In this document: in pieces, positions 24,588-50,415 of the stretch | Numbering within the stretch: the stretch's first letter is position 1 | Layout of the letters: each line of letters starts with the position of its first letter | NCBI RefSeq assembly: GCF_024721175.1 | Contig: NZ_CP099402.1 | Location: 310,001 to 374,000 of the forward strand | Length of the DNA: 64,000 nt | Direction: 5' to 3' | Source: Rhizobium sp. Pop5 | GTDB taxonomy: Bacteria; Pseudomonadota; Alphaproteobacteria; Rhizobiales; Rhizobiaceae | Position numbers and translations under genes: made by a program | The notes under the pieces: model-generated | Seen by the model: the letters and a program-made list of their open reading frames with translations, nothing else | Told to the model about the DNA's origin: nothing | The model's database searches: none

Positions 24588-25841
24588 ATGCTAAACAAGC
24601 TTCCGTCTTCCATTTCAGCCCTTCTCGACGCCCGTGCCGACGGCCATTCCCTGCCGGCCGGCCTATACACCAGGGAAGACGTGTTCGAAGCTGATATCGA
24701 CGTCTTCTTCCACAAGCACTGGATCTGCGTCGGCCTCGACTGTGACGTTCCCGAGCCAGGCGATGCGACTGTCATCGATATCGGCAAGACGAGCCTGATC
24801 CTCCTGCGCGACGACGACGGCGAGATCCGCGTCCTGCACAATGTCTGCCGCCATCGCGGCTCCCGCCTTCTCGATCCCGGCAAGACGATCGTCTCCAAGC
24901 TCGTCTGCCCCTATCACACCTGGACCTATGAACTGACGGGAGAGCTGAGCTACGCTCCCCACATGGGCAAGGACTTCGACAAGGACTGTCGCGGTCTGAA
25001 GCCCGTCACCTTCAAATCGATCGGCGGACTGATCTATGTGTGCCTTTCCGACAATCCGCCCGAAGACATCGACGTCCTCGAGCAGACCGTGGTGGAGCGC
25101 CTCGCGCCCTATGACATCAGGAACGCCAGGATCGCTCACCAGACCGACGTCATCGAGGACGGCAACTGGAAGCTGACGATGGAGAACAATCGCGAATGCT
25201 ACCATTGCTCCGCGAACCATCCGGAACTCTGCGTCTCCTTCGTCGATCTCGACTTCGGCTTCGACCCGGAAACGTTGAGCCCCGAGGATCGTGAGCAGGC
25301 CGAAGAGCATTTCCGGCTTTATGAAGAGCGGACCAAGGCGTGGGAAGCCGACGGCTTTCCCTCGGCTGCCGTCGAACAACTCGCCGACTGCGCCACCAAC
25401 TTCCGCACGCAGCGGCTGATCATCGCAGGCGCCGGCGAATCCCAGACCCATGACGCCACCGCCGCATCGTCGAAGCTGCTCGGCCACATGACCCGCAAGG
25501 ATCTCGGCGACACGCATCTCTGGGGCCACAACAGCTGGAACCACTTCATGGGCGACCATGCCGTGGTCGCGACCGTCATTCCCCTGTCGGCCGGCAAGAC
25601 GCTGGTCCGCACCAAGTGGCTTGTGCACAAGGACGCCGTCGAAGGGATCGACTACGATCTCGACAAGCTGACGGATGTTTGGATCGCGACGACGGATCAG
25701 GATGCAGACCTTGTCGCCCGTTCGCATGCCGGCACGCTTGATCTCGCTTATCAGCCAGGCCCCTATTCCCGTTTCTCCGAGACGAACCTCGACAAGTTCG
25801 CCACCTGGTACATCGATCGGATGCGCGCCCATGGATACTAG
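24588..25841 (+). CDS. Rieske non-heme iron oxygenase, betaine N-demethylase type
   Basis: A 417-residue terminal oxygenase. The Rieske [2Fe-2S] ligands are in CRHRGSR (about residues 87-89) and CPYHTW (about 107-110). The mononuclear-iron ligands are the His pair in NRECYHCSANHPE (about 206 and 211) and a late Asp in TTDQDAD. Close relatives are the stachydrine demethylase Stc2 and the glycine-betaine demethylase GbcA. These oxidise one N-methyl group, releasing formaldehyde. The nearby stcD-like gene, formaldehyde genes and hydroxyproline genes favour stachydrine or hydroxyproline betaine as substrate. The reductase overlaps its 3' end by 11 nt. It is divergent from a LysR gene. Confidence 0.9.
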   Translation: MLNKLPSSISALLDARADGHSLPAGLYTREDVFEADIDVFFHKHWICVGLDCDVPEPGDATVIDIGKTSLILLRDDDGEIRVLHNVCRHRGSRLLDPGKTIVSKLVCPYHTWTYELTGELSYAPHMGKDFDKDCRGLKPVTFKSIGGLIYVCLSDNPPEDIDVLEQTVVERLAPYDIRNARIAHQTDVIEDGNWKLTMENNRECYHCSANHPELCVSFVDLDFGFDPETLSPEDREQAEEHFRLYEERTKAWEADGFPSAAVEQLADCATNFRTQRLIIAGAGESQTHDATAASSKLLGHMTRKDLGDTHLWGHNSWNHFMGDHAVVATVIPLSAGKTLVRTKWLVHKDAVEGIDYDLDKLTDVWIATTDQDADLVARSHAGTLDLAYQPGPYSRFSETNLDKFATWYIDRMRAHGY

Positions 25842-26919
25842 GAGCCCGCAGCCCTTGCCCGGGAAGGCCGCCCTCGCCGACCTCTGGAATCCCGAGGAAG
25901 ACGACGCGCTCGTCTGCCTCGACGTCCAACAGGAGACCCATGACGTCAAGACCTTCACCTTCGCCTCGCGCGCGGGCAAGCGCTTCGCGTTCAAGGCCGG
26001 ACAATATTTTCTGTTCGACCTCGAACACAATGGCGAGGCCGAAAGCCGATGCTACAGCATCTCCTCCTCGCCGCATCGCACCAACGCCTTCTCCGTGACG
26101 GTGAAGCGCGTTCCCGGCGGCAAAATCTCCAACTGGCTTCACGACACGCTGGTCGCGGGGGCATCGGTCAAGGCCAACGGCCCGCTCGGCCATTTCGTGC
26201 GATCCGGCACGGGCCAGAAGCTGCTGCTGCTCTCGGGCGGCTCCGGCATCACCCCGGTCATGTCCATTCTGCGTGAACTCGCCGACAGCTGCGAACCCGC
26301 CGATGTCGTCTTCATGCACGCCGCCCGCACGCCGCTGGATCTGATCTTCCGCGACGAGCTCGCCTGCATCGCCCGCAGGCTGAAAGGCCTTCGGCTGCAC
26401 TTTCTGCCTGAGACCGTCGCGGGCGAGGCATCCTGGCCGGGTCTGACCGGCCGCATTTCGGCGGAGTATATGCGGCTTGCGGTTCCCGATATCGCCGAGC
26501 GCACCGTGATGTGCTGCGGCCCGGCTCCGTTCATGGCGGCGGCGCGCCGCATCGCCGGGGACCTCGGCGTGCCCGCCTCGCACTATGTGGAAGAGAGCTT
26601 CGACGCCGCTGTCATCGACGAGCCGGAGATTCCAGCGGCTCAGGACGCGGCCACCAAGGTGTTTCAGGTCAGCTTCTCCAAGCAGGCCCGCAGCATCGAG
26701 GTATCGAGCGATCAGAGCGTGCTTTCCTGCGCCAAGAAAGCGGGCGTCAGAATACCATCCTCCTGCGCGAACGGCGTCTGCGGCACCTGCAAGTCGAAGC
26801 TGACGTCGGGCACGGTCGACATGAACCACAATGGCGGCATCCGCCAGAGGGAAATCGACGCCGGCTTGTTCCTGCCCTGCTGCTCGAAGCCGCTCAGCGA
26901 TCTCGTCATCGAGCGCTGA
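25831..26919 (+). CDS. Oxygenase reductase: FAD/NAD(P)H domain plus [2Fe-2S] ferredoxin
   Basis: A 362-residue electron-transfer partner of the Rieske oxygenase. Its ATG lies inside the oxygenase 3' end (11-nt overlap), implying coupled translation. The FAD site is in SRCYSISSSPHR, and the NAD(P)H domain carries LLLLSGGSGITPVMSILREL and MCCGPAPFMAA. The C-terminal plant-type ferredoxin has CANGVCGTC and a downstream CC in LFLPCCSKP. This FNR-then-ferredoxin order is that of GbcB and related betaine demethylase reductases. It should pass electrons from NAD(P)H to the Rieske centre. Longer frames upstream are antisense-like extensions and were rejected. Confidence 0.92.
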   Translation: MDTRSPQPLPGKAALADLWNPEEDDALVCLDVQQETHDVKTFTFASRAGKRFAFKAGQYFLFDLEHNGEAESRCYSISSSPHRTNAFSVTVKRVPGGKISNWLHDTLVAGASVKANGPLGHFVRSGTGQKLLLLSGGSGITPVMSILRELADSCEPADVVFMHAARTPLDLIFRDELACIARRLKGLRLHFLPETVAGEASWPGLTGRISAEYMRLAVPDIAERTVMCCGPAPFMAAARRIAGDLGVPASHYVEESFDAAVIDEPEIPAAQDAATKVFQVSFSKQARSIEVSSDQSVLSCAKKAGVRIPSSCANGVCGTCKSKLTSGTVDMNHNGGIRQREIDAGLFLPCCSKPLSDLVIER

Positions 26920-30882: not shown

Positions 30883-30901
30883 GTCGATCAGCTCCTCTGG
30901 C

Positions 30902-31993: not shown

Positions 31994-32078
31994 GGCGATC
32001 CCCTTTTGAGCCAATCGGCGCTGGCTTCTTCTACGTTCAAAGGGCGGCCGCCCGACGGATCGGACGGCCACGAGGCGT

Positions 32079-32930: not shown

Positions 32931-33007
32931 TGCTATTTCTCCTGTTTTTCGTTCCCATTCTCATTGAAGTCTGCGAACGGGCAGTCTTCACATTGCGCGG
33001 CGACGGA

Positions 33008-37482: not shown

Positions 37483-37548
37483 CGTCGATCTCCGGCCTCT
37501 TGTTGCTCTACTCCAGGGAAGATGACACGCCTCGTCGGCAGAGTCAAT

Positions 37549-37575
37549 AATTGTGTACTCTACGTACACAATTAG
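37549..37575. promoter_or_regulatory. GntR-type operator, perfect 11-bp dyad
   Basis: TAATTGTGTAC - TCTAC - GTACACAATTA, 66-92 nt upstream of the GntR gene that heads the hydroxyproline operon. The TTGT/ACAA arms and central TGTAC/GTACA are of the FadR/FCD-GntR type. An extra half-like ATACACAAT follows 11 nt away. Confidence 0.7.
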
Positions 37576-37828
37576 TATTCCAAAAATACACAATAGCAGC
37601 GATGGATGCGATTGCGCGCCGAGCTTCCGGCGAAGACCGGGAATCGAATAGGCGAAGAGTGGGATGGCGATCGCACGCGGAAAAACGCGCAGCGTCAGCC
37701 ATCGCGTTGTTTTCCCTGCGGATTATCGTGAAAGATCTGTTCGAAAATTCTCTGTATCCGGCGTCCGCGCTCTCGGCGGGTCAATGCCGGTCATCAGGCG
37801 GTGAGGCCTGGCGCCGGTGAGCCGGCGT

Positions 37829-37891: not shown

Positions 37892-38464
37892 TCAGGCGGC
37901 CAGAACGCCGCTCTTCTTGGCCGTCCAGGTTGCGATATAGTCCATCAAGCCGGGCGAAAGGCAATCATAGGGCTCGAGGCCGGACGCTTTCAGCTGCGCC
38001 CTGACGGCGTCCATCTTGGCGGGGTCGAAGCCGCTTTCGATGATCGACGAGACGAAGGCCGCAAAGGTCGGCTTTGCCCAGCCGCCTTCCTGAAACCGCT
38101 CGGGATGAACGAAAGACAATCCCTGGAATGGATGTTCGCGCTCGACCGGGCCGTACATATGCACGCCGCACTGCTTGCAGGCATGGCGCTGGATCAGGGC
38201 AGCGGGATCGACGACGGCGAGCTTGTCGCCGTTCTCCAGCACTTCGACGCTTTCGGTCGGCGCAACCGCCACGACCGAAAAGACGGCGCCCTCGGGCTTC
38301 CAGCACTTGGTGCAGCCGCAGGCGTGGTTGTGGGCGATGTCCCCCTTGATCCTGACCTTGACCGGATTGCTTGCGCATTTGCACACGAGCGTCCCGCCCG
38401 CGAAAGCAGCGTCAGTCGCTCGAAAACCTGAATCCACTGCCGGATGAATGGCTATGCTGGTCAT
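37892..38464 (-). CDS. gfa: S-(hydroxymethyl)glutathione synthase (formaldehyde-activating, Gfa)
   Basis: A 190-residue zinc protein. Its GFA-domain cysteines are visible in [19 protein letters not shown] and [12 protein letters not shown], which bind structural and catalytic zinc. It promotes condensation of formaldehyde with glutathione, the first detoxification step. It is the last gene of the minus-strand operon that starts with the StcD-like demethylase, 54 nt after fghA. This fits disposal of the formaldehyde released by N-demethylation. GGAGG in GGAAGGGAGTG precedes the ATG. Confidence 0.95.
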
Positions 38465-38518: not shown

Positions 38519-39361
38519 TTATTTCCGATCTCCCAGCCTCTGCGCGTGCCAGCGCAGATGGTCCTCCATGAATGTCGAAATGAAGAAGTAGGAATGGCCG
38601 TAGCCTTCCTGCATGCGAAGCTCGAGCTTGATATCGGCCGCGTCGCAGGCCTGTTTAAGCTCGCCGGGACGCAGCCCATCCTCCAGGAAGCTATCCGCCG
38701 TTCCTTGGTCGACGAAGAGTTCCGGGAAGCGATGCCCGTCCTCGATCAGGGAGCAGGCGTCATAGGCCCGCCAAGTCTTTTCGTCGGCTCCGAGATATTT
38801 CCGGAACGCCGGCTTCGACCAGCCGGAGACCGAGGGATGGCTGATCGGCGCGAAGGCCGAGCAGCTCCGGAAGCGGTCCGGGTTCTTGAGCGCGATCGTG
38901 ATCGCGCCATGCCCGCCCATCGAGTGGCCGAAGATGCCCTGGCGATCCATATCGACCGGGAACTCGGCCGCGATCAGCTTCGGCAGTTCGTCGGCGATGT
39001 AGCTGTACATGCGATAATTCGCTGCATAGGGCGGCTGCGTGGCGTCGACGTAAAAGCCGGCGCCCTTGCCGAATTGCCAGTTGTCCGCTTCATCGGGAAC
39101 ATGGTCGCCGCGAGGGCTGGTATCCGGGCAGACGATGACGAGACCGAGTTCGGCGGCAAGCCGCCGATACTCGCCCTTGTCCATGACATTGGCATGCGTG
39201 CATGTCAGGCCGGACAGATACCACAGCACCGGCAGCTTGCGCTCGGCGGCCTGCGGCGGCACGAATACCGCAAAGGTCATGTCGCAATCGCAGGCCTCGG
39301 AGCGCTCGACATAGACGCCCTGAGTGCCGCCGTAGGACTTATCGGTCGAGATCGTCTTCAT
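38519..39361 (-). CDS. fghA: S-formylglutathione hydrolase
   Basis: A 280-residue serine hydrolase of the esterase D family. It carries the nucleophile elbow GIFGHSMGGHGAITIAL, the oxyanion strand LPVLWYLSGLTCTHANVMDK and the C-terminal catalytic His region EGYGHSYFFISTFMEDHLRW. It hydrolyses S-formylglutathione to formate and glutathione, the third step of the pathway. It starts 3 nt after the adhC stop, so the two are cotranslated. Confidence 0.96.
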   Translation of the reverse strand: MKTISTDKSYGGTQGVYVERSEACDCDMTFAVFVPPQAAERKLPVLWYLSGLTCTHANVMDKGEYRRLAAELGLVIVCPDTSPRGDHVPDEADNWQFGKGAGFYVDATQPPYAANYRMYSYIADELPKLIAAEFPVDMDRQGIFGHSMGGHGAITIALKNPDRFRSCSAFAPISHPSVSGWSKPAFRKYLGADEKTWRAYDACSLIEDGHRFPELFVDQGTADSFLEDGLRPGELKQACDAADIKLELRMQEGYGHSYFFISTFMEDHLRWHAQRLGDRK

Positions 39362-39364
39362 CGC

Positions 39365-40492
39365 TTAATACACGACCACGCCGCGGATGCTTTCCCCCTT
39401 GTGCATCAGGTCGAAGCCCTTGTTGATGTCTTCGAGCGGCATAGTGTGGGTGATCATCGGATCGATCTGGATCTTGCCCTGCATGTACCAGTCGACGATC
39501 TTCGGAACGTCGGTGCGGCCGCGCGCGCCGCCGAAGGCGGTGCCCATCCAGTTGCGGCCGGTGACCAGCTGGAACGGCCGGGTGGAGATCTCCTGGCCGG
39601 CGCCGGCAACGCCGATGATGACCGATTTGCCCCAGCCGCGATGCGAAGCTTCCAGCGCCTGGCGCATCACCTTGGTGTTGCCGGTGCAGTCGAAGGTGTA
39701 GTCGGCGCCGCCGATCAGGTCGCCGTTGCGCTTGGTCATGTTGACCAGATAAGGAACGATGTCGTCGCCGACGTCCTTCGGATTGACGAAATGCGTCATG
39801 CCGAACTTCTCGCCCCAGGCCTTGCGGTCCGGGTTGATATCGACACCGATGATCATGTCGGCGCCGGCAAGGCGCAGGCCCTGGATGACGTTCAGGCCGA
39901 TGCCGCCGAGCCCGAAGACGATCGCGGTGGCGCCGATCTCGACCTTGGCCGTGTTGATGACGGCGCCGATGCCTGTCGTGACGCCGCAGCCGATGTAGCA
40001 GACCTTGTCGAAGGGCGCGTCGGGGTTGATCTTGGCAAGCGCGATCTCCGGCAGCACCGTGTAATTGGCGAAGGTCGAGCAGCCCATATAGTGATGGATC
40101 TTGTCCTTGCCGATCGAGAAGCGCGAGGTACCATCGGGCATCACGCCCTGCCCCTGGGTTGATCGAATCGAGGTGCAGAGATTGGTTTTGCGCGATGTGC
40201 AGGAATAGCACTCGCGGCATTCGGGTGTGTAAAGCGGAATGACGTGGTCGCCCTTCTTGACCGAAGTGACGCCCGGGCCGACGTCGACGACGATGCCGGC
40301 GCCCTCGTGGCCGAGAATGGCCGGGAAGAGGCCTTCCGGGTCGGCGCCCGACAGCGTGAAATCGTCGGTGTGGCAAATGCCCGTCGCCTTGACCTCGATC
40401 AGCACTTCGCCGGCCTTCGGGCCGTCGAGCTGCACGGTCATCACTTCGAGCGGTTTTCCTGCCTGAACGGCAACGGCGGCGCGAACGTCCAT
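39365..40492 (-). CDS. adhC: S-(hydroxymethyl)glutathione dehydrogenase (class III alcohol dehydrogenase)
   Basis: A 375-residue zinc-dependent dehydrogenase. It has the catalytic zinc ligands in [12 protein letters not shown] and GHEGAG, the structural zinc cluster [15 protein letters not shown] and the NAD motif [32 protein letters not shown] is the usual class III start. It oxidises S-hydroxymethylglutathione to S-formylglutathione, the second step of glutathione-dependent formaldehyde oxidation. It also has nitrosoglutathione reductase activity in other bacteria. It lies 75 nt downstream of the ligand-less cupin and 3 nt upstream of fghA. GGAGGG is upstream of the ATG. Confidence 0.97.
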
Positions 40493-40567: not shown

Positions 40568-41260
40568 TCATCCCGGCTCGACCTGGCACCAGACCGCCAG
40601 AAGCGGCTGGGCCGTGCATCTTATCGCGAAGGATTGCCCGGCATCGTTTGCAAAGACTGTGCCGGTAGCGGCAGAAAACCATTGGGAATCGCCAAGGCAG
40701 ATTTCACCCGGCGAAAGCAGGATGAAGGCGCGCGGCTGCGTCTGAACGTGATCGGGGAACCGGGTGTAGCGATCCATATAGATGACGCCGACCCTGAGAT
40801 CGGCGCGCTCCTCCATGCCGCCGGGGCCAACCACGACCGCATGGGAATGCGTATTGCCGAAATTCAGGCTTGCGAACGGGCCGGAGCGGCCGCGTCTCCA
40901 GAGCAGCTTGTCGGCGAGACTCTGGAACTGGCCGGCGATCGCCTCATATTTCCGTCCCGACTTTGCAAGATGGCGGACGGCTTCGTCGAGCCCCTCGGGC
41001 GCGCCGGGAAGAGTCCCGCCCTCCGGACGCACCTTTCCTGTTTTCAGCAGCCTCTGGAGGACCTTGCCCGCAACGAAACTGGCCACAGCTGGAGCTTCCG
41101 CCGACAGCATCAGGCCGCCGACGTCGTTCAGGAATTCCTGCAGCGGCCCGGGCCGCCTTTCCCTGCCGATGTCGTGCAGCCGAATGTATGCCGGCTTCTC
41201 GTCATCGTTCAGAAGAAGGTCTGCACCAGGTTTGATTGGACGTCCCACCGCGCGCGCCAC
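40568..41260 (-). CDS. DMSP-lyase-like cupin paralogue lacking metal ligands
   Basis: A 230-residue protein that aligns over its length with the cupin at 43.0-43.6 kb, e.g. [20 protein letters not shown] here against LIIGPGGLEERNDLWLGVTL there. The metal-binding strand of the paralogue, DHDHAPEEVY, is [10 protein letters not shown] here. The second His, the Glu and the Tyr are therefore lost, and the distal His (IKHAMRS) is a Phe (QSFAIRC). It should not bind a catalytic metal. A structural, regulatory or ligand-binding role is possible. It lies 15 nt after etfA in the stcD operon. Confidence 0.75.
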
Positions 41261-41275
41261 GTTCGGTCTCCCCGC

Positions 41276-42205
41276 TCAGAGCGCCTTTTCGAGTTCGGGC
41301 AGGACGTCGAAGAGATCGGCGACGAGGCCGTAGTCGGCGACCTGGAAGATCGGCGCCTCCTCGTCCTTGTTGATGGCGACGATCACCTTCGAATCCTTCA
41401 TGCCGGCCAGATGCTGGATGGCGCCTGATATGCCGCAGGCGATATAAAGCTGCGGCGCCACCACCTTGCCGGTCTGGCCGACCTGCCAGTCGTTCGGGGC
41501 ATAACCGGCATCGACGGCCGCACGGCTTGCGCCGACGGCAGCACCCAGCTTGTCGGCAACCGGCAGGATGACTTCCCTGAACTTCTCGGCAGAGCCGAGG
41601 GCGCGGCCGCCCGAGATGATGACCTTCGCCGAGGTCAGTTCCGGACGGTCGGAGGCCGACAGCGCATCGGAGACGAACCGCGACAGGCCCGGATCCGAGA
41701 TCGCCGGGATCGCCTCGACGGCGGCCGAACCGTTTGCCGGCGCAGAGGCGAAGGAGGCGGTGCGCACGGTGATCACCTTCCTGGCATCGCTGGCCTGCAC
41801 CGTCTGGATGGCATTGCCGGCATAGATCGGACGCTTGAAGGTGTCAGATGACACCACCTCGATGATCTCGGAGAGCTGGGCGACGTCGAGAAGGGCTGCC
41901 ACCCGCGGCAGCACGTTCTTGCCGACCGAGGTCGCAGCCGAGATGATCGTGTCATAGGAACCGGCGAGCGAGACGATCAGATCGGAAAGCGGTTCGGCGA
42001 GATTGTTGGCAAGCTCGTCGCTTTCGGCAAGCAGCACCTTGGTCACACCGGAAAGCTTGGCCGCCGCATCGGCCGCCGCCTGCGCAGCCTTGCCGGCGAC
42101 CAGCACATGAATATCGCCGCCGATCTGCGAGGCGGCCGTCAGCGCCTTGGCGGTCTGGTCGGAGAGGCTGGCATTGTCGTGGTCGGCCAGAAGAAGAATG
42201 GTCAT
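41276..42205 (-). CDS. etfA: Electron transfer flavoprotein alpha subunit
   Basis: A 309-residue subunit. The C-terminal FAD-binding domain carries [20 protein letters not shown] and [40 protein letters not shown]. The N-terminal half is the variable ETF fold. With EtfB it forms the FAD/AMP heterodimer that collects electrons from flavin demethylases and passes them to ETF-ubiquinone oxidoreductase. Lying in the stcD operon, 24 nt after etfB, it is most likely a dedicated acceptor for the StcD-like demethylase rather than the housekeeping beta-oxidation copy. Confidence 0.96.
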
Positions 42206-42229
42206 GATATTTACTCCTGTTCCGCCTGA

Positions 42230-42991
42230 TTAGAGCACGCCGGCTTCGTTCTTCAGCTTGTCGACCAGCTCAGTGACCGACTTGACCTTGACGCCGGCCT
42301 TGCGGCCACTCGGCTCCTCGGTCTTCAGCACCTTCAGCCGCGGCGTCGTATCGACGCCGAAGTCGGCTGGGCTCTTCTTGTCGAGCGGCTTCTTCTTCGC
42401 CTTCATGATGTTTGGTAGCGAGGCATAGCGCGGCTCATTGAGCCTGAGATCGGTGGTCACCACCGCCGGCAGCTTGATCTCGATCGTCTGCAGGCCGCCA
42501 TCGACCTCGCGGGTCACCGTCGCCTTGCCCCCAGGGACAGCAGCTTCGATCTCGATCTTCGAGGCGAAGGTGGCCTGGGCCGTGCCCAACAGGGCTGCGA
42601 GCATCTGGCCGGTCTGGTTGGAATCGTCATCGATCGCCTGCTTGCCGACGATGATCAGGCCCGGCTGTTCGGCGTCCGCCACACCCTTGAGGATCTTGGC
42701 GACGGCCAGCGGCTCGACCGCATCGTCGGTCTCGACGAGGATCGCCCGGTCGGCACCCATGGCCAGCGCCGTCCGCAGCGTCTCCTCGGCCTTGGCCGGA
42801 CCAATCGAAACGACGACGACTTCCTCGGCCTTGCCGGCTTCCTTCAGCCGCAGCGCCTCTTCCACCGAGATCTCGTCGAACGGGTTCATCGACATCTTCA
42901 CATTGGCAAGTTCCACACCCGTGCCGTCCGGACGAACCCGGATCTTCACGTTGTAGTCGACAACCCTCTTGACGGGCACGAGAATCTTCAT
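42230..42991 (-). CDS. etfB: Electron transfer flavoprotein beta subunit
   Basis: A 253-residue subunit with the standard start [20 protein letters not shown], the ETF-beta stretch [20 protein letters not shown] and the AMP-binding region [16 protein letters not shown], then [20 protein letters not shown]. It pairs with the etfA product 24 nt downstream. It follows the metal-competent cupin by 12 nt and is therefore in the same minus-strand operon as the StcD-like demethylase. Confidence 0.96.
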
Positions 42992-43003
42992 TTGCGAACC
43001 TCT

Positions 43004-43627
43004 TTATATCTTCAATGGCGGCCGCCAGTGCGGCCGTTCGGCGAGCAGTGCCCAGAAGGCGAAGAGCGGCGTATCGACCGATCTCATGGCATGTTTGATT
43101 CCGGGGATATTGTAGAACGATCCGCCGATCCCAGGCGAAAACCAGTCCCCCTCCCCCTGTCGAAACTCTCCCTCGGAAAGCACAAGATAGACTTCCTCCG
43201 GCGCATGATCATGATCGGGATAGCGCACGTGAGGCGCCATCAACGTCACGCCGAGCCACAGGTCGTTTCGCTCCTCCAATCCGCCCGGGCCGATGATCAA
43301 GGCATTGGCATGCCCATCGACGAAATTGTCGCTGGCCGTGTGGTCATACTTGGTGCGCCGATGCCATTCAAGCATTGGCTCTATGCCCCTGAAGCCCTCG
43401 ATCAATCGCGCTAGCGAAGCATAGGACGTATCGATCGAGAGCGCCATATCGAGCTGAGCACAGACGGGCAACCGGCTTCCTTTTCCTGTCCGCGCGATCC
43501 CCGGACGCTCCAGCGCCGCAAAGATCTGACCGATCGAGCGGCGGGCTTCCGGAGCTTTCGCCAACTGATCGAAAGCCACATTCGCCGCCTCCAGGAAATG
43601 CTGGAGGCTTTCATTGCGTAAACTCAT
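43004..43627 (-). CDS. DMSP-lyase-family cupin (DddQ/DddL-like), metal site intact
   Basis: A 207-residue cupin. The barrel strand RYPDHDHAPEEVYLVLSEGE supplies two His, a Glu and a Tyr, and GIKHAMRS a third His. This is the arrangement of metal ligands and catalytic Tyr in DMSP lyases of the DddQ/DddL/DddW type. The start MSLRNESLQ is chosen for its strong GGGAGGGGG upstream; an ATG at 43678 overlapping stcD by 4 nt is also open. It lies between stcD and etfB, so DMSP cleavage may not be the real activity here. A reaction on a betaine or its breakdown product is worth considering. Confidence 0.82.
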   Translation of the reverse strand: MSLRNESLQHFLEAANVAFDQLAKAPEARRSIGQIFAALERPGIARTGKGSRLPVCAQLDMALSIDTSYASLARLIEGFRGIEPMLEWHRRTKYDHTASDNFVDGHANALIIGPGGLEERNDLWLGVTLMAPHVRYPDHDHAPEEVYLVLSEGEFRQGEGDWFSPGIGGSFYNIPGIKHAMRSVDTPLFAFWALLAERPHWRPPLKI

Positions 43628-43674: not shown

Positions 43675-45711
43675 TCATAGATCCTTTGCGATGCGCAGCG
43701 CGTCATAGATGGCGGCATGCGTATTGCGCGCAGCGACAGCATCGCCGATGCGGAACAGCTGGAACCGCCCCTCGGGATTGCGAACGACGGACTGAGGTTT
43801 TCCCGAAAGGAGCTCGTCGTGCGAGAGCTCGCCGAGATTGCTGGAACTGGGCTTCAGCTCGAAATAAAGCTCGTCGAGCGGGATTGTCCCGTGGTTGACG
43901 ACGATCTGGTCGTAGCTCTGCTCCCGGGCAATTCCGCCGTAATCGCTGCCGACATGGGCGACGAGCTGGTTGCCGCTCTTTTCGACCGCCTCCAGGCGAT
44001 AGGTGACGGTAAAGGTCACGTCATGCTTCTGGAGAGAGCGCATATAGGGCACCAGGTTCATGGCCATCACCTCAGGCGCGAAGGAGCGGTCCGGGGTCAT
44101 GATCTCGACCTTGGCCCCCGCCTTGGCGAGGAATTCGGCCGCCTGAAGACCGGCATGGTCGCCGGCATCGTCGAAAACAAGCACGTTCGAACCCGGCTTC
44201 ACGTCGCCGGAGATGATGTCCCATGAGGAGACCACCAGCTCGTTGCCGCGCGAAAGAATCTCCGTGTGCGGCAAGCCGCCGGTCGCGATGATGACGACAT
44301 CGGGCTTCTCGGCCTCGATCGTGTCGGCTTCCGCCCAGGTGTTGAAGTGGAAGGTGACGCCGTACTTCTCGCACTGGCTCATGCGCCAGTCGATGATGCT
44401 GATCATTTCCCTGCGACGCTCGCTCTGGGCGGTGAGCCGGATCTGGCCGCCGGGATTGTTGGCCGCTTCGAAGACGACGACCTCGTGGCCGCGTTCCCCG
44501 GCGACGCGCGCCGCCTCCAGGCCGGCCGGGCCCGCACCGACGATGACGACCTTTTTCCTGGCGTCGGCCTTATCAAGCACATGCGGCATGGTCAGTTCGC
44601 GGCCGGTGGCGGCATTGTGGATGCAATAGGCCGCGCCGCCCTGGTAGATGCGGTCGAGGCAGTAATTGGCGCCGACGCAAGGACGGATATCCTCCTCCCG
44701 CTTCTCGATGATCTTGCGGACGAGATGCGGGTCGGTCATGTGGGCGCGGGTCATGCCGACCATATCGACCTTGCCGGCCGCGATCGCGTGGCGCGCGGTG
44801 GCGACGTCGGGAATTTTCGCCGCATGGAAGGTCGGGAAATTGGTCGCGGCGCGGATTTCACCGGCAAAGTCCAGGTGCGGGGAATTTGCCATGCCCTGGA
44901 TCGGAATGACGTCGGTCAGGCCCGCATCGGTGTCGATGTGGCCGCGAATGACGTTCAGATAGTCGATGAGGCCGCTGTCGCGCAGCCGCTTCGATATTTC
45001 TATGCCTTCCGCCTGCCCGTTGCCGCCGGGCAGGCATTCGTCCGCCGTGTAGCGCACGCCGAGAATGAATTCATTCCCCACCCTCTCGCGGATCGCCTTG
45101 AACACGTCGAAACAGAAGCGCAGGCGGTTTTCGAGCGACCCGCCATAGGGACCGTCGAGTTCGTTCGTGAGCGGAGACGCGAACTGGTCGATCAGGTGGC
45201 CGTAGGCCTCCAGTTCGATACCGTCCATGCCGCCCGCCTTCATGCGCTCGGCCGCATCGGCGAAATCCTTGATGATACGCTCGATGTCCCAGTCTTCCAG
45301 CTTCTTCGGGAAGGCGCGATGCGAGGCTTCGCGATGGTGCGACGGGGCGACGACGGGCAGCCAGTCGCCCTTGTCCCAGCGGGTGCGCCGGCCGAGATGG
45401 GTGAGCTGGATCATGATCGCCGCTCCCTCTTCGTGCACGGCGTCGGTCATTTCCCTGATCCAGGGCACGATCTCGTCTTTGTAGGCGAGAAGGTTGTTGA
45501 AGACCGGGGGGCTGTCCCTAGAAACCGCGGCGGAACCCGCCGTCATCGTCAAGGCCACCCCGCCCTTTGCCCGCTCCACCGTATAGGCGCGATATTTCTC
45601 CTTCGGCATGCCATCCTCGGGATAAGCCGGCTCGTGGGAGGTCACGATGATACGGTTACGCAGCGTCAGATGCTTGAGCTGGTAGGGCTGGAGAAGGGGA
45701 TCATTCGACAT
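43675..45711 (-). CDS. stcD: N-methylproline/dimethylglycine demethylase-like flavoprotein (StcD family)
   Basis: A 678-residue member of the trimethylamine-dehydrogenase/dienoyl-CoA-reductase group, the length of Sinorhizobium StcD. Residues 1-340 form an FMN TIM barrel (LTLRNRIIVTSHEPAYPEDG, IMIQLTHLGRRTRWD, GPYGGSLENRLRF). Then comes an iron-sulfur segment (CVGANYCLDRIYQGGAAYC) and FAD/NAD Rossmann domains (KVVIVGAGPAGLEAARVAGE). In TMADH the Fe-S motif has four Cys; here the second is Ala. It should oxidise an N-methyl group to formaldehyde and pass electrons to the EtfBA encoded two genes on. It heads an eight-gene operon that ends with formaldehyde disposal. Confidence 0.9.
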   Translation of the reverse strand: MSNDPLLQPYQLKHLTLRNRIIVTSHEPAYPEDGMPKEKYRAYTVERAKGGVALTMTAGSAAVSRDSPPVFNNLLAYKDEIVPWIREMTDAVHEEGAAIMIQLTHLGRRTRWDKGDWLPVVAPSHHREASHRAFPKKLEDWDIERIIKDFADAAERMKAGGMDGIELEAYGHLIDQFASPLTNELDGPYGGSLENRLRFCFDVFKAIRERVGNEFILGVRYTADECLPGGNGQAEGIEISKRLRDSGLIDYLNVIRGHIDTDAGLTDVIPIQGMANSPHLDFAGEIRAATNFPTFHAAKIPDVATARHAIAAGKVDMVGMTRAHMTDPHLVRKIIEKREEDIRPCVGANYCLDRIYQGGAAYCIHNAATGRELTMPHVLDKADARKKVVIVGAGPAGLEAARVAGERGHEVVVFEAANNPGGQIRLTAQSERRREMISIIDWRMSQCEKYGVTFHFNTWAEADTIEAEKPDVVIIATGGLPHTEILSRGNELVVSSWDIISGDVKPGSNVLVFDDAGDHAGLQAAEFLAKAGAKVEIMTPDRSFAPEVMAMNLVPYMRSLQKHDVTFTVTYRLEAVEKSGNQLVAHVGSDYGGIAREQSYDQIVVNHGTIPLDELYFELKPSSSNLGELSHDELLSGKPQSVVRNPEGRFQLFRIGDAVAARNTHAAIYDALRIAKDL

Positions 45712-45757
45712 GGGCCGTGGTTCCGGATTAAAAACGACGAAGCAGACGCTAAGGGTA

Positions 45758-45817
45758 ATGTACATACGTGTCAACGAAGAAAACATGGAAGTCATTTATT
45801 CTGACACATATGTACAT
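45758..45817. promoter_or_regulatory. Paired inverted operator in the stcD-tetR divergent promoter
   Basis: ATGTACATACGTGTCA at 45758-45773 and TGACACATATGTACAT at 45802-45817 are inverted copies with one mismatch, separated by 28 nt. Each half is itself partly symmetric (TGTACA...TGTCA). They lie between the stcD and TetR-type genes, so the TetR protein probably binds both and controls both directions. Confidence 0.65.
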
Positions 45818-45858: not shown

Positions 45859-46488
45859 ATGGACCAGTCTTTTAACGACACCGGTTGGCGTGGATCGCAG
45901 GAGGGATGGCTGGAAGCAGCCTACCAGTCACTGCTGGAATCCGGCGTGGATTCGGTAAAAATTCTGCCGCTCGCAAAAAAGCTCAATCTCTCGCGAACGA
46001 GCTTCTACTGGTTCTTCAAGGATCGGGAGGAACTCTTGAGCGCACTGGTGGCCCGGTGGCGGGAGAAAAACACCGGCAATATCGTCAAACAGTCCGAAGC
46101 CTATGCGGAATCGTTGGCCGAGGCGATGCTCAATGTCTTCGATTGCTGGCTGAACACCGATCTTTTCGACGCCAAATTCGAATTTTCCGTGCGAAGCTGG
46201 GCGCTGCAGTCTGGCGAACTTCTCGCAGAAGTCCAACAGGCGGATCAAATTCGCATGGAGGCGCTCAAGCGCATGTTCATGCGCTTCGGTCTACCAGAAA
46301 CGACATCAGATGTCAGAGCCCGAACAACTTACCTCGTACAGATCGGTTATATTTCCATGCAGTCGAGGGAGGATATCGCCGTCCGCATGAAACGGATTCC
46401 GGAATATATCGCGATCTACACGGGTGAAGTGCCGCAGCAGAGGGAGCTCGACCGCTTCTTCGCCCGGCATGGCTATAGGCCGGATTAG
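45859..46488 (+). CDS. TetR-family regulator of the stcD region
   Basis: A 209-residue protein. The N-terminal helix-turn-helix (WLEAAYQSLLESGVDSVKIL, AKKLNLSRTSFYWFFKDREE) is TetR type. The rest is a helical ligand-binding domain without recognisable specificity (FDAKFEFSVRSWALQSGELL). AGGAG in GATAGGAGATAG precedes the ATG. It is divergent from stcD, with paired inverted sites in the gap, and is the first gene of a plus-strand unit with the pyrroline reductase homologue and the second betaine importer. Close relatives act as activators or repressors of stachydrine or dimethylglycine genes. Confidence 0.92.
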   Translation: MDQSFNDTGWRGSQEGWLEAAYQSLLESGVDSVKILPLAKKLNLSRTSFYWFFKDREELLSALVARWREKNTGNIVKQSEAYAESLAEAMLNVFDCWLNTDLFDAKFEFSVRSWALQSGELLAEVQQADQIRMEALKRMFMRFGLPETTSDVRARTTYLVQIGYISMQSREDIAVRMKRIPEYIAIYTGEVPQQRELDRFFARHGYRPD

Positions 46489-46498
46489 GAAACCCGAG

Positions 46499-47293
46499 AT
46501 GAGCGCTCCTTTGAGAATTGGCATGATCGGTGGCAGCGGCTGGCTTGGCGGGGCAATCGCCGGGTCGATCCTCGATGCCGGCCTGGTCGATTCTCAAAAT
46601 CTCTCCCTTTCCTATCGCGGGGAGCCGCCGTCCCGTTTCCCGAACGCCTTCTGGACCGCCGACAATCAGGAGCTGGCCGACCGTTCGGACGTGATCCTCC
46701 TCTGCGTCCGCCCTGACGACTGGCATCCCCTTGCGGTCGATGCCGGCGGCAAGCTCGTCATCTCGGTCATGGCCGGCATCCGCCTTGCTGCCCTTGCCGA
46801 ACGCCACAAGACCGGCCGCGTCGTCCGCGCCTTGCCGAACGCCGCCGCAGAAGTGGCAAAATCCTATACGCCCTGGATCGCAGCACGCGACGTCACGCAA
46901 GATGATCGCGCTGTCATTCGGGCCATTTTCGAAGCCTGCGGAACGCAGGACGAGGTCGCAAGGGAAAGCGATATCGATTACCTCACGGGCCTTTCCGGCT
47001 CGGGGCCGGCATTCCCGGCCCTGCTTGCCGCTGCCATGATGCGCGACGCCGTCGCCCGCGGGCTGCCGGCGGAGGTTGCGCGCCGCGCCGTCAACACGGT
47101 GATATCGGGCGCCGGCCGCCTGCTCGAACGCCATGACGAATCTCCCGGCGACGTCGTTCAAACCTTTCTCGGCTACCGCGGCACCACCGCGGCGGCCATC
47201 GAAGGCATGCGCGCTGCCGGGTTCGACGCTTCGGTCGCCGACGGACTGTCGGCGGCCTTCAAGAAATCGGTGAGTATGGGAGAAGCCTCCTGA
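46499..47293 (+). CDS. Pyrroline-5-carboxylate reductase homologue
   Basis: A 264-residue ProC-family protein with the Rossmann start LRIGMIGGSGWLGGAIAGSI, the middle GRVVRALPNAAAEVAKSYTP and the C-terminal signature YLTGLSGSGPAFPALLAAAM. It starts 10 nt after the TetR-type gene and precedes a betaine-importer gene, so it is catabolic or accessory rather than the housekeeping proline-synthesis enzyme. It might reduce a cyclic imine made in N-methylproline or hydroxyproline breakdown back to an imino acid. The glycine motif (GGSGWLG) is non-standard for ProC (GxGxMG), so nucleotide or substrate preference may differ. Confidence 0.85.
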   Translation: MSAPLRIGMIGGSGWLGGAIAGSILDAGLVDSQNLSLSYRGEPPSRFPNAFWTADNQELADRSDVILLCVRPDDWHPLAVDAGGKLVISVMAGIRLAALAERHKTGRVVRALPNAAAEVAKSYTPWIAARDVTQDDRAVIRAIFEACGTQDEVARESDIDYLTGLSGSGPAFPALLAAAMMRDAVARGLPAEVARRAVNTVISGAGRLLERHDESPGDVVQTFLGYRGTTAAAIEGMRAAGFDASVADGLSAAFKKSVSMGEAS

Positions 47294-47360: not shown

Positions 47361-48362
47361 ATGAAGAAACTACTCGCATCGACGTGTCTGATGTTCGGCC
47401 TGATCGGCGGGGCGTCTTTCGCCAGCGCCGCCGAATGCGGCAGCGTCACCATCGCCAGCATGAACTGGCAGAGCGCCGAAGTTCTGTCCAACCTGGACAA
47501 GTTCATCCTGAACGAAGGTTATGGCTGCAGCGCCGATATCACCGTTGGCGATACCGTCCCGACCATCACCTCCATGGCCGAAAAGGGCCAGCCGGATATC
47601 GCGCCTGAAGCCTGGATCGACCTGCTGCCCGACGTCGTCAAGAAGGGCACGGACGAAGGCCGCATCGTTCAGGTCGGCTCGCCGCTGCCGGACGGCGGCG
47701 TGCAGGGCTGGTGGATTCCGAAGTATCTCGCCGACGCCCATCCCGATATCAAGACGATCGGCGATGCGCTGAAGCATCCGGAACTCTTCCCCGATCCCGA
47801 GGATCCGAAAAAGGGCGCCGTCGTGAACGGCCCGCAGGGCTGGGGCGGCACCGTCGTCACCTCGCAGCTCTACAAGGCCTTCGCCGCCGATAAGGCCGGC
47901 TTCACCCTGGTGGACACCGGTTCGGCTGCCGGCCTCGACGGCTCGATCGCCAAGGCTTACGAACGCAAGGAAGGCTGGGTCGGCTACTACTGGGCGCCGA
48001 CGGCGCTGCTCGGCAAGTATCAGATGGTCAAGCTCGAAGCCGGCGTGCCGGAAGATGCAGCCGAGTGGAAGCGTTGCATCACGGTTGCCGATTGCGCCGA
48101 TCCCAAGGCCGCTGCATGGCCGGTCGATCACGTCGTCACCCTCGTTGCCAAGCCTTTCTCTGAAAAGGTCGGCCCCGAGGTCATGGACTACCTGAAGAAG
48201 CGCTCCTGGAGCAACGACACGGTCAACAAGCTGATGGCCTGGATGACCGACAACCAGGCGACCGGCGAAGACGGCGCCAAGCACTTCCTTGAAGAAAACA
48301 AGGACATCTGGACCAAGTGGGTCTCGCCTGAGGCAGCCAAGAAGATCGAAGCTGCGCTTTAA
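47361..48362 (+). CDS. Betaine-type ABC transporter substrate-binding protein (second system)
   Basis: A 333-residue protein with signal peptide MKKLLASTCLMFGLIGGASF then ASAAEC. The mature OpuAC-fold protein shows ASMNWQSAEVLSNLDKFIL, PDIAPEAWIDLLP, GWWIPKYLADAHPDIK and EGWVGYYWAPTALLGKYQMV. Its Trp/Tyr clusters fit a quaternary-amine box. Cys pairs (ECGSV, CITVADC) suggest periplasmic disulphides. It is longer than, and distinct from, the binding protein at 32-33 kb. It lies 67 nt after the pyrroline reductase homologue and 93 nt before its permease. Confidence 0.93.
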   Translation: MKKLLASTCLMFGLIGGASFASAAECGSVTIASMNWQSAEVLSNLDKFILNEGYGCSADITVGDTVPTITSMAEKGQPDIAPEAWIDLLPDVVKKGTDEGRIVQVGSPLPDGGVQGWWIPKYLADAHPDIKTIGDALKHPELFPDPEDPKKGAVVNGPQGWGGTVVTSQLYKAFAADKAGFTLVDTGSAAGLDGSIAKAYERKEGWVGYYWAPTALLGKYQMVKLEAGVPEDAAEWKRCITVADCADPKAAAWPVDHVVTLVAKPFSEKVGPEVMDYLKKRSWSNDTVNKLMAWMTDNQATGEDGAKHFLEENKDIWTKWVSPEAAKKIEAAL

Positions 48363-48455
48363 TATTGACTATCGCGGTGCGCGAAAGCGCACCGCTTCTC
48401 GCCGCCGATAAAATCAAAAAGACTGCCACGGCTCTTTGAAGAAAAGGGGAACCGA

Positions 48456-49343
48456 ATGGAATGGTTTTATAAATTCCCGCATATGAACGACGACGCGCTT
48501 CGCAATCTGAAGAAGGCGATCGATGATGGTTTTCGCGCCTTTACCCGCGCCTATGGCGACGGGATCGAAAACCTCTTCATCCCGCTTCAGCATTTCCTCA
48601 TCGCGGCCGAACGTTTCATGACGCAGACGCCGTGGCCGATCATCACCTTGATCATCCTCGCCACCGCCTGGTTTGCGAGCCGCAGCCTGAAGATCGTCTT
48701 CGGCTGTCTCGTGACGCTCCTCCTGATCGGCTATTTCGACATGTGGGACGATACGATGCGGACGGTCTCGATGATCTTCGTCTGCACGGTTCTGTCCATC
48801 GCCATCGGCATTCCGATCGGCATCCTGATGGCGCGTTCCGACCGGCTGCAGCGCGTCGTCAATCCGATCCTCGACGTCATGCAGACGATGCCGAGCTTCG
48901 TCTACCTCATCCCGGTCGTCATGCTCTTGGGCATCGGCAAGGTGCCCGGTCTGATCGCCGTCGTCATCTACGCCATCCCGCCGATGATCCGCCTCACCGA
49001 TCTCGGCATCCGGCTCGTCGACAAGGACGTTCTGGAAGCGGCCGACGCCTTCGGCACGTCGCGCTCGCAGAAGCTCTTCAAGGTGCAGCTGCCGCTCGCA
49101 CTGCCCACCATCATGGCCGGCATCAACCAGACGATCATGATGGCGCTCGCCATGGTGGTCATTGCTTCGATGATCGGCGTGCAAGGGTTGGGCCAGCCGG
49201 TGTTGAAGGCGATTGCCAACCAGTACTTCACGCTGGGCATCTTCAACGGCCTTGCCATCGTCGGCATCGCCATCATCTTCGACCGGGTCAGCCAGGCTTA
49301 TGGCAAAAGGCTCCAGAAGCATCGGGAGACCGTCCATGGCTGA
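48456..49343 (+). CDS. Betaine-type ABC transporter permease (second system)
   Basis: A 295-residue ProW-like permease with six or more helices, the VVNPILDVMQTMPSFVYLIP family stretch, and the ATPase-coupling loop VLEAADAFGTSRSQKLFKVQ, LPLALPTIMAGINQTIMMAL. The first 60 residues are a cytoplasmic or peripheral extension (MEWFYKFPHMNDDALRNLKK). The ATPase gene starts 8 nt inside its 3' end. Unlike the system at 29-33 kb, there is a single permease gene, presumably a homodimer. Confidence 0.94.
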   Translation: MEWFYKFPHMNDDALRNLKKAIDDGFRAFTRAYGDGIENLFIPLQHFLIAAERFMTQTPWPIITLIILATAWFASRSLKIVFGCLVTLLLIGYFDMWDDTMRTVSMIFVCTVLSIAIGIPIGILMARSDRLQRVVNPILDVMQTMPSFVYLIPVVMLLGIGKVPGLIAVVIYAIPPMIRLTDLGIRLVDKDVLEAADAFGTSRSQKLFKVQLPLALPTIMAGINQTIMMALAMVVIASMIGVQGLGQPVLKAIANQYFTLGIFNGLAIVGIAIIFDRVSQAYGKRLQKHRETVHG

Positions 49344-50415
49344 GCATCATTTCGGCGGCATCAAGATCCGCAATCTCTACAAGATCTTCGGTCCCACCCC
49401 CTCCGCCTTTGTCGAGGCGGTTCAGAAGGGCCTCACCAAGACCGAACTCAACGCAAAGCACGGCCATGTGCTCGGGCTCAGGGATATCAATGTCGAGATC
49501 CCCTCCGGCCGCATCCAGGTCATCATGGGCCTGTCGGGATCGGGCAAGTCGACGCTCATCCGCCACATCAATCGCCTGATCGATCCGACATCGGGCGAAG
49601 TGCTGGTCGACGGCGTCGATGTCGTGAAGATGAACGAGGCCGAATTGCGGACGTTTCGCCGGCAGCAGACGGCGATGGTGTTCCAGAAGTTCGCGCTTCT
49701 CCCGCACCGCAACGTCCTCGACAACACCATCTTCGGTCTCGAAGTGCAGGGCATGGAGCGAGCGAAAGCCGTCGACGTCGCCATGCGCTGGATCGAGCGG
49801 GTCGGACTCAAAGGCTTCGAGCAGAAATATCCGAACCAGCTTTCCGGCGGCATGCAGCAGCGCGTCGGCCTGGCGCGGGCTCTCTCCAACGACGCGCCGG
49901 TGCTGCTGATGGACGAGGCCTATTCGGCCCTCGATCCCTTGATCCGCACCGACATGCAGACGGTGCTGCTCGACATCCAGAAAGAGATCAAGAAGACGAT
50001 CGTCTTCATCACCCACGATCTCGACGAGGCGCTGCGCCTCGGTGACCAGATCGCCATCCTGCGCGACGGCGAAGTCATCCAGCAGGGCACCAGCCAGGAC
50101 ATCGTGCTGCGCCCGGCCGACGATTACATCGCCAACTTCGTCAAGGAGGTCAATCGCGGCCGGGTCATCCATGTCGAAGCCGTCATGACGCCGCTGCACG
50201 CCGGCGCGGCACCGGTTGGACTGGCGATTGCGGCGGGAACGACCGTCGAAGAGGCAGTCCGGATGCTGGCATCCGCGCCGGAAGGCAATGCCAAGGTGGT
50301 CTCCCCTTCAGGGGAAACGCTGGGTCTCGTCACCATCCGTCAGCTCGCGAGCGCGATGGTGAACTCGAAAGAGATGGCAGCTCAGCACGATAGCCCCCTT
50401 TCGGTCGCGCTCTGA
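49336..50415 (+). CDS. ProV/OpuAA-like ABC transporter ATPase (second system)
   Basis: A 359-residue ATPase with Walker A in IMGLSGSGKSTLIRHI, Q-loop in AMVFQKFALLPHR, signature LSGGMQQRVGLARALSNDAP, Walker B in LLMDEAYSALDPL and the switch His in FITHDLDEALR. A C-terminal CBS-like tail (AGTTVEEAVRMLASAPEGNA) is present. The ATG overlaps the permease 3' end by 8 nt. It completes the importer and is followed by an intrinsic terminator. Confidence 0.95.
   Translation: MAEHHFGGIKIRNLYKIFGPTPSAFVEAVQKGLTKTELNAKHGHVLGLRDINVEIPSGRIQVIMGLSGSGKSTLIRHINRLIDPTSGEVLVDGVDVVKMNEAELRTFRRQQTAMVFQKFALLPHRNVLDNTIFGLEVQGMERAKAVDVAMRWIERVGLKGFEQKYPNQLSGGMQQRVGLARALSNDAPVLLMDEAYSALDPLIRTDMQTVLLDIQKEIKKTIVFITHDLDEALRLGDQIAILRDGEVIQQGTSQDIVLRPADDYIANFVKEVNRGRVIHVEAVMTPLHAGAAPVGLAIAAGTTVEEAVRMLASAPEGNAKVVSPSGETLGLVTIRQLASAMVNSKEMAAQHDSPLSVAL

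Follow-up and report, generated by a model that had tools for sequence, protein, structure and literature searches.

A DMSP lyase-named cupin with a probable role in a proline-betaine operon of Rhizobium sp. Pop5, and its metal-free paralogue

We propose that CupA, one of two DMSP-lyase-family cupins encoded in an N-methylproline demethylation operon, serves the betaine pathway with an activity other than DMSP cleavage, and that its paralogue CupB has been retained as a metal-free protein, a joint reading to which we give a probability of roughly 0.6. Rhizobia meet stachydrine-type plant betaines at seeds and roots. The window, as used here, is the whole stretch of 64,000 nucleotides that was analysed.

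The cupin genes and their operon

A check of the open reading frames placed both cupin genes on the minus strand, flanking etfBA, at the positions claimed by a sequence-only reading of this DNA (Table 1). CupA precedes etfB by 12 bases and CupB follows etfA by 15, all on one strand. The most likely start of CupA, giving a 207-aa form, is the ATG at 43627, preceded by GGGAGGGGGTGAG; 43627 is also the end coordinate of the sequence-only reading. No other PF16867 genes were found in the genome.

The operon had been read as one for proline betaine and not for sulfur, and our comparisons bear this out. The hpbA product, which carries FMN-oxidoreductase and pyridine-nucleotide reductase domains (Pfam), has 74% identity, over 678 aa, with a protein of Paracoccus pantotrophus named by NCBI as the N-methyl-L-proline N-demethylase HpbA, and the P. 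pantotrophus cluster holds a cupin of the CupA family between hpbA and etfBA. Shared with that cluster are the hpbA-cupin-etfB-etfA order, the TetR regulator, the betaine ABC transporter, the P5C-reductase-like protein and a Rieske protein, whereas the window's operon is without hpbD and has an extra, metal-free cupin together with adhC-fghA-gfa. We take HpbA to resemble StcD of S. meliloti. StcD is described as an N-methylproline demethylase (PMC12239276). Judged by gene order and position only, the neighbouring ABC transporter is probably Qat3 (pRL120514-6), and a relative of the Qat3 binding protein is given as up 7- to 30-fold in bacteroids (PMC6421345).

The divergent P5C-reductase-like gene is distinct from a better-scoring gene of the P5CR family on another contig of the same genome (C2); its fold alone does not tell which substrate such a reductase uses. 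Two relatives of the Rieske protein of the P. pantotrophus cluster, both putative N-demethylases, are present in the genome, one on contig C2 (55%) and one in the window, apart from the operon. Given these two relatives, replacement of a Rieske N-demethylase by CupA was judged unlikely. In the window's operon and in the Paracoccus cluster alike, DMSP lyase is the sole NCBI name of the cupin, and a literature search over titles and abstract openings, in which subscription journals were mostly missing, gave no publication on cupins in proline-betaine clusters.

Table 1. Features of the cupin operon and of related genes in the window.
Feature	Position	Strand	Basis or remark
CupA, PF16867 cupin, intact metal/catalytic site residues	43004..43627	-	longest ORF to 43678
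CupB, PF16867 cupin paralogue without metal site	40568..41260	-	GTG start
CupA motif Y153-P-D-H156-D-H158-A-P-E-E162-V-Y164	43187..43222	-	alignment with DddQ chains and ORF coordinates
CupA third metal His (putative), His196	43091-43093	-	alignment with DddQ chains and ORF coordinates
hpbA/stcD-type N-methylproline demethylase	43675..45795	-	Pfam; identity to NCBI-named HpbA, P. pantotrophus
etfB	42230..42991	-	Pfam ETF
etfA	41276..42205	-	Pfam ETF, ETF_alpha
adhC, S-(hydroxymethyl)glutathione dehydrogenase	39365..40492	-	NCBIfam TIGR02818, above cut-off
fghA, S-formylglutathione hydrolase	38519..39361	-	Pfam Esterase; name is that of the RefSeq orthologue
gfa, glutathione-dependent formaldehyde-activating enzyme	37892..38464	-	Pfam GFA
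TetR-type regulator, divergent from hpbA	45859..46488	+	Pfam TetR_N
P5C-reductase-like protein	46499..47293	+	Pfam P5CR_dimer, F420_oxidored; P5CR chains in PDB; longest ORF from 46424
Betaine-type ABC transporter	47361..50415	+	RefSeq names of pRL12 orthologues
ABC binding protein	47361-48362	+	
ABC permease	48456-49343	+	
ABC ATPase ORF	49213-50415	+	
Rieske oxygenase, candidate N-demethylase, apart from operon	24588-25841	+	42% to Rieske of P. pantotrophus cluster
Reductase ORF beside Rieske oxygenase	25675-26919	+	named from sequence; joint span 24588..26919

Active-site residues and the DMSP lyase name

Both proteins match the Pfam family PF16867, DMSP_lyase (cut-off 27 bits), CupA at 192.5 bits (E = 5.5e-57) and CupB at 83.2 bits (E = 2.3e-23), and the two align over 115 residues at 39% (E = 3e-26); an NCBIfam scan assigned a family to neither. 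Their predicted folds are alike, the closest solved folds being DddQ and then DddY, and the predicted structure has the DddQ fold with its N-terminal helices. On alignment, CupA Y153, H156, H158, E162, Y164 and H196 (numbered on the 224-aa ORF) correspond to DddQ Tyr120, His123, His125, Glu129, Tyr131 and His163. These six positions are reported to be essential in DddQ, and DddW to need the matching His81/His83/Glu87/His121 for iron and activity (PMC4437653). CupB carries F168, H171, Q173, R177, F179 and F211 at the six positions and keeps one of them. The Gln, Arg, Phe and Phe on which loss of the metal site had been claimed are thus all present; however, the first His of the metal motif is kept, and the second catalytic Tyr (the Tyr120 equivalent) is also Phe. 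A search with a CupA profile gave 1341 matching proteins (E <= 1e-8), and among the 120 of these that were listed the Y,H,H,E,Y,H set is kept in 119, the exception having a changed Glu. PF16867 is present in all 120 listed, and DMSP lyase is the name of many of the named ones. One protein search scored the 7997 candidates with the most shared words.

NCBI's name would make CupA a genuine DMSP (or DMSOP) lyase, DMSP being a further betaine brought in by the same ABC transporter. Against this stands a signature of eight residues, H123, N125, E135, R137, D139, W141, R152 and W179, each found in 119 or 120 of the 120 listed relatives and all different in both DddQ chains used for this comparison, 5jso and 5cu1 (the latter, by its PDB title, DddQ of Ruegeria pomeroyi), the criterion being our own. 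CupA is also only about 20% identical to DddQ (PDB 4la2, 4b29, 5cu1, 5jso) and its sequence matches in the PDB are weak (best E = 1.1e-7), while CupB is without five of the six essential residues. The neighbours are N-demethylation and formaldehyde genes, and no DMSP gene was found among the annotated neighbours in the window's orthologous loci or the Paracoccus cluster; unlike DddQ, CupA has no sulfur context. Because CupA has its own family signature, is linked to hpbA and travels with a P5C-reductase-like gene, it is probably not a DMSP lyase, and we regard DMSP cleavage as improbable. A new substrate, as the sequence-only reading had suggested for these cupins, is plausible for CupA, since neither of the DddQ chains used for comparison shares its near-invariant signature. 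Lei et al. 2018 reportedly described DMSP lyase-like cupins of unknown function, among which CupA would belong; here such a cupin is tied to a pathway and a partner gene, and a metal-free clade is added.

Linkage of cupA and a candidate reaction

We examined the neighbourhoods of 80 cupA loci, a sample that favours close relatives because it was chosen by similarity to CupA. They contained a member of the hpbA group in 71 cases, tetR in 71, the gene of the ABC binding protein in 66 and the P5C-reductase-like gene in 65; in the other 15 the reductase gene was unseen in the available DNA, some contigs ending near the gene. By comparison, the reductase gene and the binding-protein gene each occurred in 1 of 20 hpbA loci without cupA (20 of 30 picked from the 50 cupA-less loci among the 59 best-scoring HpbA loci with DNA available). 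Two loci (L166 and L167) have reductase and cupin side by side but no hpbA, and the S. meliloti locus examined showed no reductase gene. On an HpbA tree that kept 47 of 110 loci, those with short flanks, stops or weak HpbA having been dropped, 25 loci had cupA and reductase, 7 cupA only, 15 neither and none the reductase only. Five independent pairs on this tree gave the cupA-reductase association in the same direction in 4-5 cases and the opposite in none (sign test, p = 0.0625, range to 0.125, where five pairs cannot reach 0.05), and for the ABC binding protein 3-4 pairs were for an association with cupA and 1 was against.

CupA is accessory to the pathway, and many hpbA clusters are without it. 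A necessary partnership with HpbA was rejected: among the 59 best HpbA loci, cupA lay within 1.5 kb in only 9, and of 30 HpbA genomes with no adjacent cupA, 28 gave no CupA-profile match above 66.3 bits. More distant CupA relatives (43-48%) adjoin either an arginase-family gene or one for a PreA-type pyrimidine reductase, so similar chemistry may act on other substrates.

We infer that CupA is a metal-dependent enzyme of the proline/hydroxyproline-betaine pathway. In a DddQ-type centre, with the metal on His and Glu side chains and a Tyr as base, it would hold a cyclic betaine-type amino acid by its carboxylate and abstract the alpha-proton, and it may form a module with the divergent P5C-reductase-like protein. 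The reaction we prefer is beta-elimination of water, from 3-hydroxyproline betaine or N-methyl-3-hydroxyproline, to a cyclic enamine/iminium that would be reduced to N-methylproline; HpbA would demethylate this product, with electrons passing to EtfBA and formaldehyde to AdhC/FghA/Gfa. We hold this specific dehydratase step only tentatively, as rather unlikely in its details. No 3-hydroxyproline-specific gene was identified, and the plant source of 3-hydroxyproline betaine named in PMC8608490 is a caper-family species, not a legume. Equally speculative is the wider scheme in which CupA opens an undescribed betaine branch, water (not dimethyl sulfide) being eliminated from a betaine or an N-methyl amino acid of the 3-hydroxyproline type ahead of a dedicated P5C-reductase paralogue and HpbA, and in which the fold of the CupB clade, in Rhizobiaceae, now serves without metal in ligand binding or in association with electron-transfer flavoprotein.

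The same alpha-deprotonation could, as the chief alternative, lead to epimerisation at C2, in which the Tyr would take the alpha-proton and the proton would return on the other face, as in the deprotonation by a DMSP lyase but with no leaving group. CupA would then racemise or epimerise N-methylproline or the betaine of proline or of 4-hydroxyproline, standing in for HpbD where that enzyme is missing. With a 124-residue part of HpbD as query, no match of at least 38% turned up in the 80 cupA loci, and nearby genes of the window fit the breakdown of D-hydroxyproline. Yet the P. pantotrophus cluster has hpbD and the cupin together, one cupA locus (L171) has a mandelate-racemase-family gene 84% identical to one in that cluster, and the linkage with the P5CR-like reductase is left unexplained. 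We consider epimerisation a real contender, though still unlikely.

The CupB clade

We found 69 relatives of CupB, 26-94% identical to it, and none keeps the metal/catalytic set. They form one clade with a long stem (SH-aLRT support 100) in a quick tree with SH-aLRT as its only support measure, a split outgroup and several long branches. Purifying selection is stronger on CupB than on CupA (dN/dS 0.089 vs 0.187; 14 sequences each), and two cysteines are conserved in the clade, C215 (68/69) and C225 (66/69), where CupA mostly has Ser and Ala. Judged from these sequences, CupB belongs to an old sister family that has lost its metal site and is strictly conserved. It resembles pseudoenzymes in general, in which an enzyme fold is strongly conserved with its catalytic residues lost; here the fold is kept, the residues are lost across orthologues and selection is purifying. 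The metal site would have been lost once, in descent from a CupA-like ancestor, and CupB may persist as a scaffold or binding protein that works without metal and independently of CupA.

Loss of the metal ligands, and the single TAG stop inside the matched stretch of one relative (G128), might instead mark CupB as a recently inactivated CupA duplicate on its way out. The dN/dS, the single long-stemmed clade, the conserved cysteines and the missing site in 69 relatives of such divergence speak against this; recent decay was rejected as very improbable. The sequence-only reading had seen an active/inactive pair, perhaps a hetero-oligomer with CupB as regulatory or completing subunit, and in the R. 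leguminosarum/etli group, as in one further genome (G057), one operon does contain both. Their predicted folds are similar, CupB is strongly constrained, and the order etfA-cupB-ETF-QO recurs in G057, L025 and L032. The pair reading is nevertheless weakened: CupB forms a separate clade of long standing, CupA is missing from 7 of the 14 genomes that have a clear CupB, in 3 of the other 7 the two genes sit on different contigs and cupB has unrelated neighbours, and among the 80 cupA loci cupB was seen in only 13, many of these contigs stopping short of where it would lie. With half of the CupB genomes lacking CupA, and cupB often distant from betaine genes, an obligate complex is unlikely, and an obligate pair was rejected as a general rule; we regard a hetero-oligomer of the two cupins as improbable, though a local one may exist in this lineage. 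As to an ETF-linked role, the etfA-cupB-ETF-QO order recurs, yet elsewhere CupB adjoins unrelated genes.

If the DMSP lyase name is wrong for the CupA clade, counts of DMSP-degrading genes would be inflated in soil and plant-associated bacteria. The CupB clade offers a natural series in which a metal-enzyme fold is kept without the metal. The operon ties stachydrine-type plant betaines to an enzyme candidate with a concrete partner gene, and the missing CupA reaction is therefore directly testable.

The operon and its relatives

The window occupies positions 310001-374000 of contig C5 in a Rhizobium genome of 6.74 Mb and 5 contigs, and the closest named matches come from the R. leguminosarum/etli/vallis/lentis group. 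The annotated gene content and order on plasmids pRL12 (R. johnstonii 3841) and p42f (R. etli CFN 42) match those of the operon and its divergent genes, and the NCBI names there are 'dimethylsulfoniopropionate lyase' for CupA and 'dimethylsulfonioproprionate lyase family protein' for CupB. The FdhF/YdeP-family gene adjoins the hpb cluster on both plasmids as well. A cluster on pPAN2 of Paracoccus pantotrophus encodes HpbD (4-hydroxyproline betaine 2-epimerase), a Rieske oxygenase and reductase, a P5C-reductase-like (P5CR-like) protein, a betaine ABC transporter, TetR, HpbA (N-methyl-L-proline N-demethylase), a CupA-family cupin, EtfB and EtfA. Identity of the window's proteins to this cluster is 74% over 678 aa for HpbA, 75% for EtfB, 63% for EtfA, 64% for the binding protein, 57% for TetR, 42% for the P5CR-like protein and 38% for CupA, and the window's genome holds two Rieske relatives, one of them inside the window. 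Given these identities and Rieske relatives, the earlier assignment of the cupins to a proline-betaine operon was sound, and the Rieske step probably does not need the cupin.

Features of the window and of related loci
Feature	Location	Strand	Description
Second betaine-type cluster	30034-37593	minus	ABC transporter, pipecolate-oxidase-like FAD enzyme, aldehyde dehydrogenase, dihydrodipicolinate-synthase-like enzyme, GntR
CupB	40568-41260	minus	cupin paralogue without metal site
etfBA	41276-42991		DNA copy on contig C2, 97.7% identical, edges at gene boundaries
CupA	43004-43627	minus	DMSP-lyase-family cupin
hpbA-type oxidoreductase	43675-45795	minus	heads the run hpbA, CupA, etfB, etfA, CupB, adhC, fghA, gfa
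tetR, P5C-reductase-like gene, betaine-type ABC transporter		plus	divergent from hpbA
FdhF/YdeP-family molybdopterin oxidoreductase	52784-55078		TIGR01701, 965 bits
CupB-type gene, Agrobacterium cucumeris plasmid	L161:6917-7609		product lacks the first His too; near carboxylase, tautomerase and dehydrogenase genes
CupA relatives, Rhodobacteraceae assemblies	L098:8-1677; L101:91-1541		43-48%; directly 3' of a dihydroorotate-dehydrogenase/4Fe-4S protein gene

Two further etfBA copies (~87%) lie on C5, and there is also an etfA piece; the copies point to recent copying or gene conversion. Such repeats are probably the reason that many draft contigs break off right behind cupA. The second betaine-type cluster resembles a route for hydroxyproline or its betaine, and its counterpart on pRL12 extends into a 4-hydroxyproline epimerase.

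The CupB clade and its possible pairing with CupA

A search with the CupB alignment returned 69 proteins at E <= 1e-8; those listed with organism names were from Rhizobiaceae, plus one fragment named Ochrobactrum/Brucella. The metal set was found in none of the 69, the residues reading FHQRFF in 40 and being broken in each of the other 29 too, and the clade-typical cysteines C215 and C225 were present in 68 and 66, respectively. All 29 CupB-type rows of a 62-row tree grouped in a single clade (SH-aLRT 100), which branches on a long stem from within the CupA-type family; residues that set the CupA type apart from DddQ occur in them too. Most simply, this would reflect a single loss of the metal site, from a CupA-like ancestor. 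Among orthologues of 14 Rhizobium loci, dN/dS was 0.089 for CupB versus 0.187 for CupA and 0.170 for the P5CR-like gene; values were 0.143 for etfA, 0.116 for etfB, 0.067 for tetR, 0.058 for hpbA and 0.057 for adhC (13 sequences). CupB, a member of a conserved metal-free sister clade, is therefore maintained for a function.

The sequence-only reading had proposed that the two cupins form an active/inactive pair, possibly a hetero-oligomer with a regulatory subunit. A clear CupB (at least 190 bits) occurred in 14 of 394 family genomes, and where CupA (at least 305 bits) was also present (7 genomes), the two genes flank etfBA in three (G000, G194, G057) and lie on separate contigs, with CupB amid unrelated genes, in three (G045, G106, G128); in the seventh, G250, the contigs stop close to the etf genes and adjacency is likely. 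The other 7 CupB genomes have no CupA. CupB elsewhere neighbours GntR/FAD-oxidase, 2-oxoglutarate oxygenase, aminotransferase, helicase, alanine racemase/ornithine cyclodeaminase, flagellin and methyltransferase genes. An ETF:ubiquinone oxidoreductase comes after CupB in G057 and at loci L025 and L032, a hint that CupB is linked to ETF only where it sits in the operon. A regulatory partnership between CupA and CupB may be a local development; it is not what maintains the CupB clade. The original observation was real and non-trivial, and its suggestion of a new substrate is better supported than that of a hetero-oligomer.

CupA, its proposed partner reductase and a candidate reaction

All six residues reported as essential in DddQ are kept in 119 of the 120 CupA relatives listed (of 1341), and HxHxxxExY appears at each of the 100 loci that have a CupA ORF, a count that includes the one in the window. 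HpbA seems to function without CupA: among the 59 top-scoring HpbA loci for which DNA was retrieved, only 9 have CupA within 1.5 kb, and among 30 genomes without cupA adjoining HpbA a clear CupA occurs elsewhere in two (257 and 225 bits), a further six giving 48-66 bits. One genome (G209) has a second hpb locus (L145, contig 8) whose cupA-like gene is broken across two frames, and an open cupA-like copy on contig 4.

Near cupA, at 80 loci found by similarity to CupA, were hpbA (71), tetR (71), an ABC binding protein (66), the P5CR-like gene (65) and cupB (13); at 20 hpbA loci without cupA, the P5CR-like gene and the same-type binding protein were each found once. An HpbA tree covered 47 loci, of which 25 had cupA and the reductase, 7 cupA only, 15 neither and none the reductase only. 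Five independent pairs on this tree gave 4-5 concordant cupA-reductase contrasts and none opposed (p 0.0625, range to 0.125; five pairs cannot give a lower value), and contrasts for cupA and the binding protein agreed in 3-4 pairs and disagreed in 1 (p 0.375-0.625). L166 and L167, from two other genomes, also have the cupin and the reductase together where hpbA is missing. The window's P5CR-like gene (83.2 bits) is distinct from a higher-scoring P5CR-family gene on contig C2 (117.6 bits), and a third scores 27.1. We read cupA and the reductase as a putative two-enzyme module carrying the pathway to a further substrate.

In cupin DMSP lyases the substrate is held on the metal; a Tyr (or His) has been put forward as alpha-proton acceptor for DddW/DddQ (PMC4437653), and removal of this proton would let the beta-substituent depart. 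Proline betaine carries its charged nitrogen on the alpha carbon, hence it could not depart by this route. A 3-hydroxyl on a proline-type betaine could depart instead after alpha-proton removal, and the loss of water would leave a cyclic enamine or iminium acid, a kind of compound that P5CR-type enzymes reduce; N-methylproline or proline, formed by this reduction, would then enter the HpbA route. This dehydratase mechanism would agree with both the residues and the partner gene. An epimerase is the alternative for CupA, and it matches the residues equally well. H123, N125, E135, R137, D139, W141, R152 and W179, near-invariant in CupA relatives and different in both DddQ chains (5jso and 5cu1), support a substrate other than that of DddQ.

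The protein encoded next to the Rhodobacteraceae CupA relatives is of the PreA type, which acts in pyrimidine reduction, and the CupA family probably serves other pathways as well. Both the enzyme kind of which CupA is a variant and the pathway in which it lies are known, and CupA has a candidate reaction and a testable partner.
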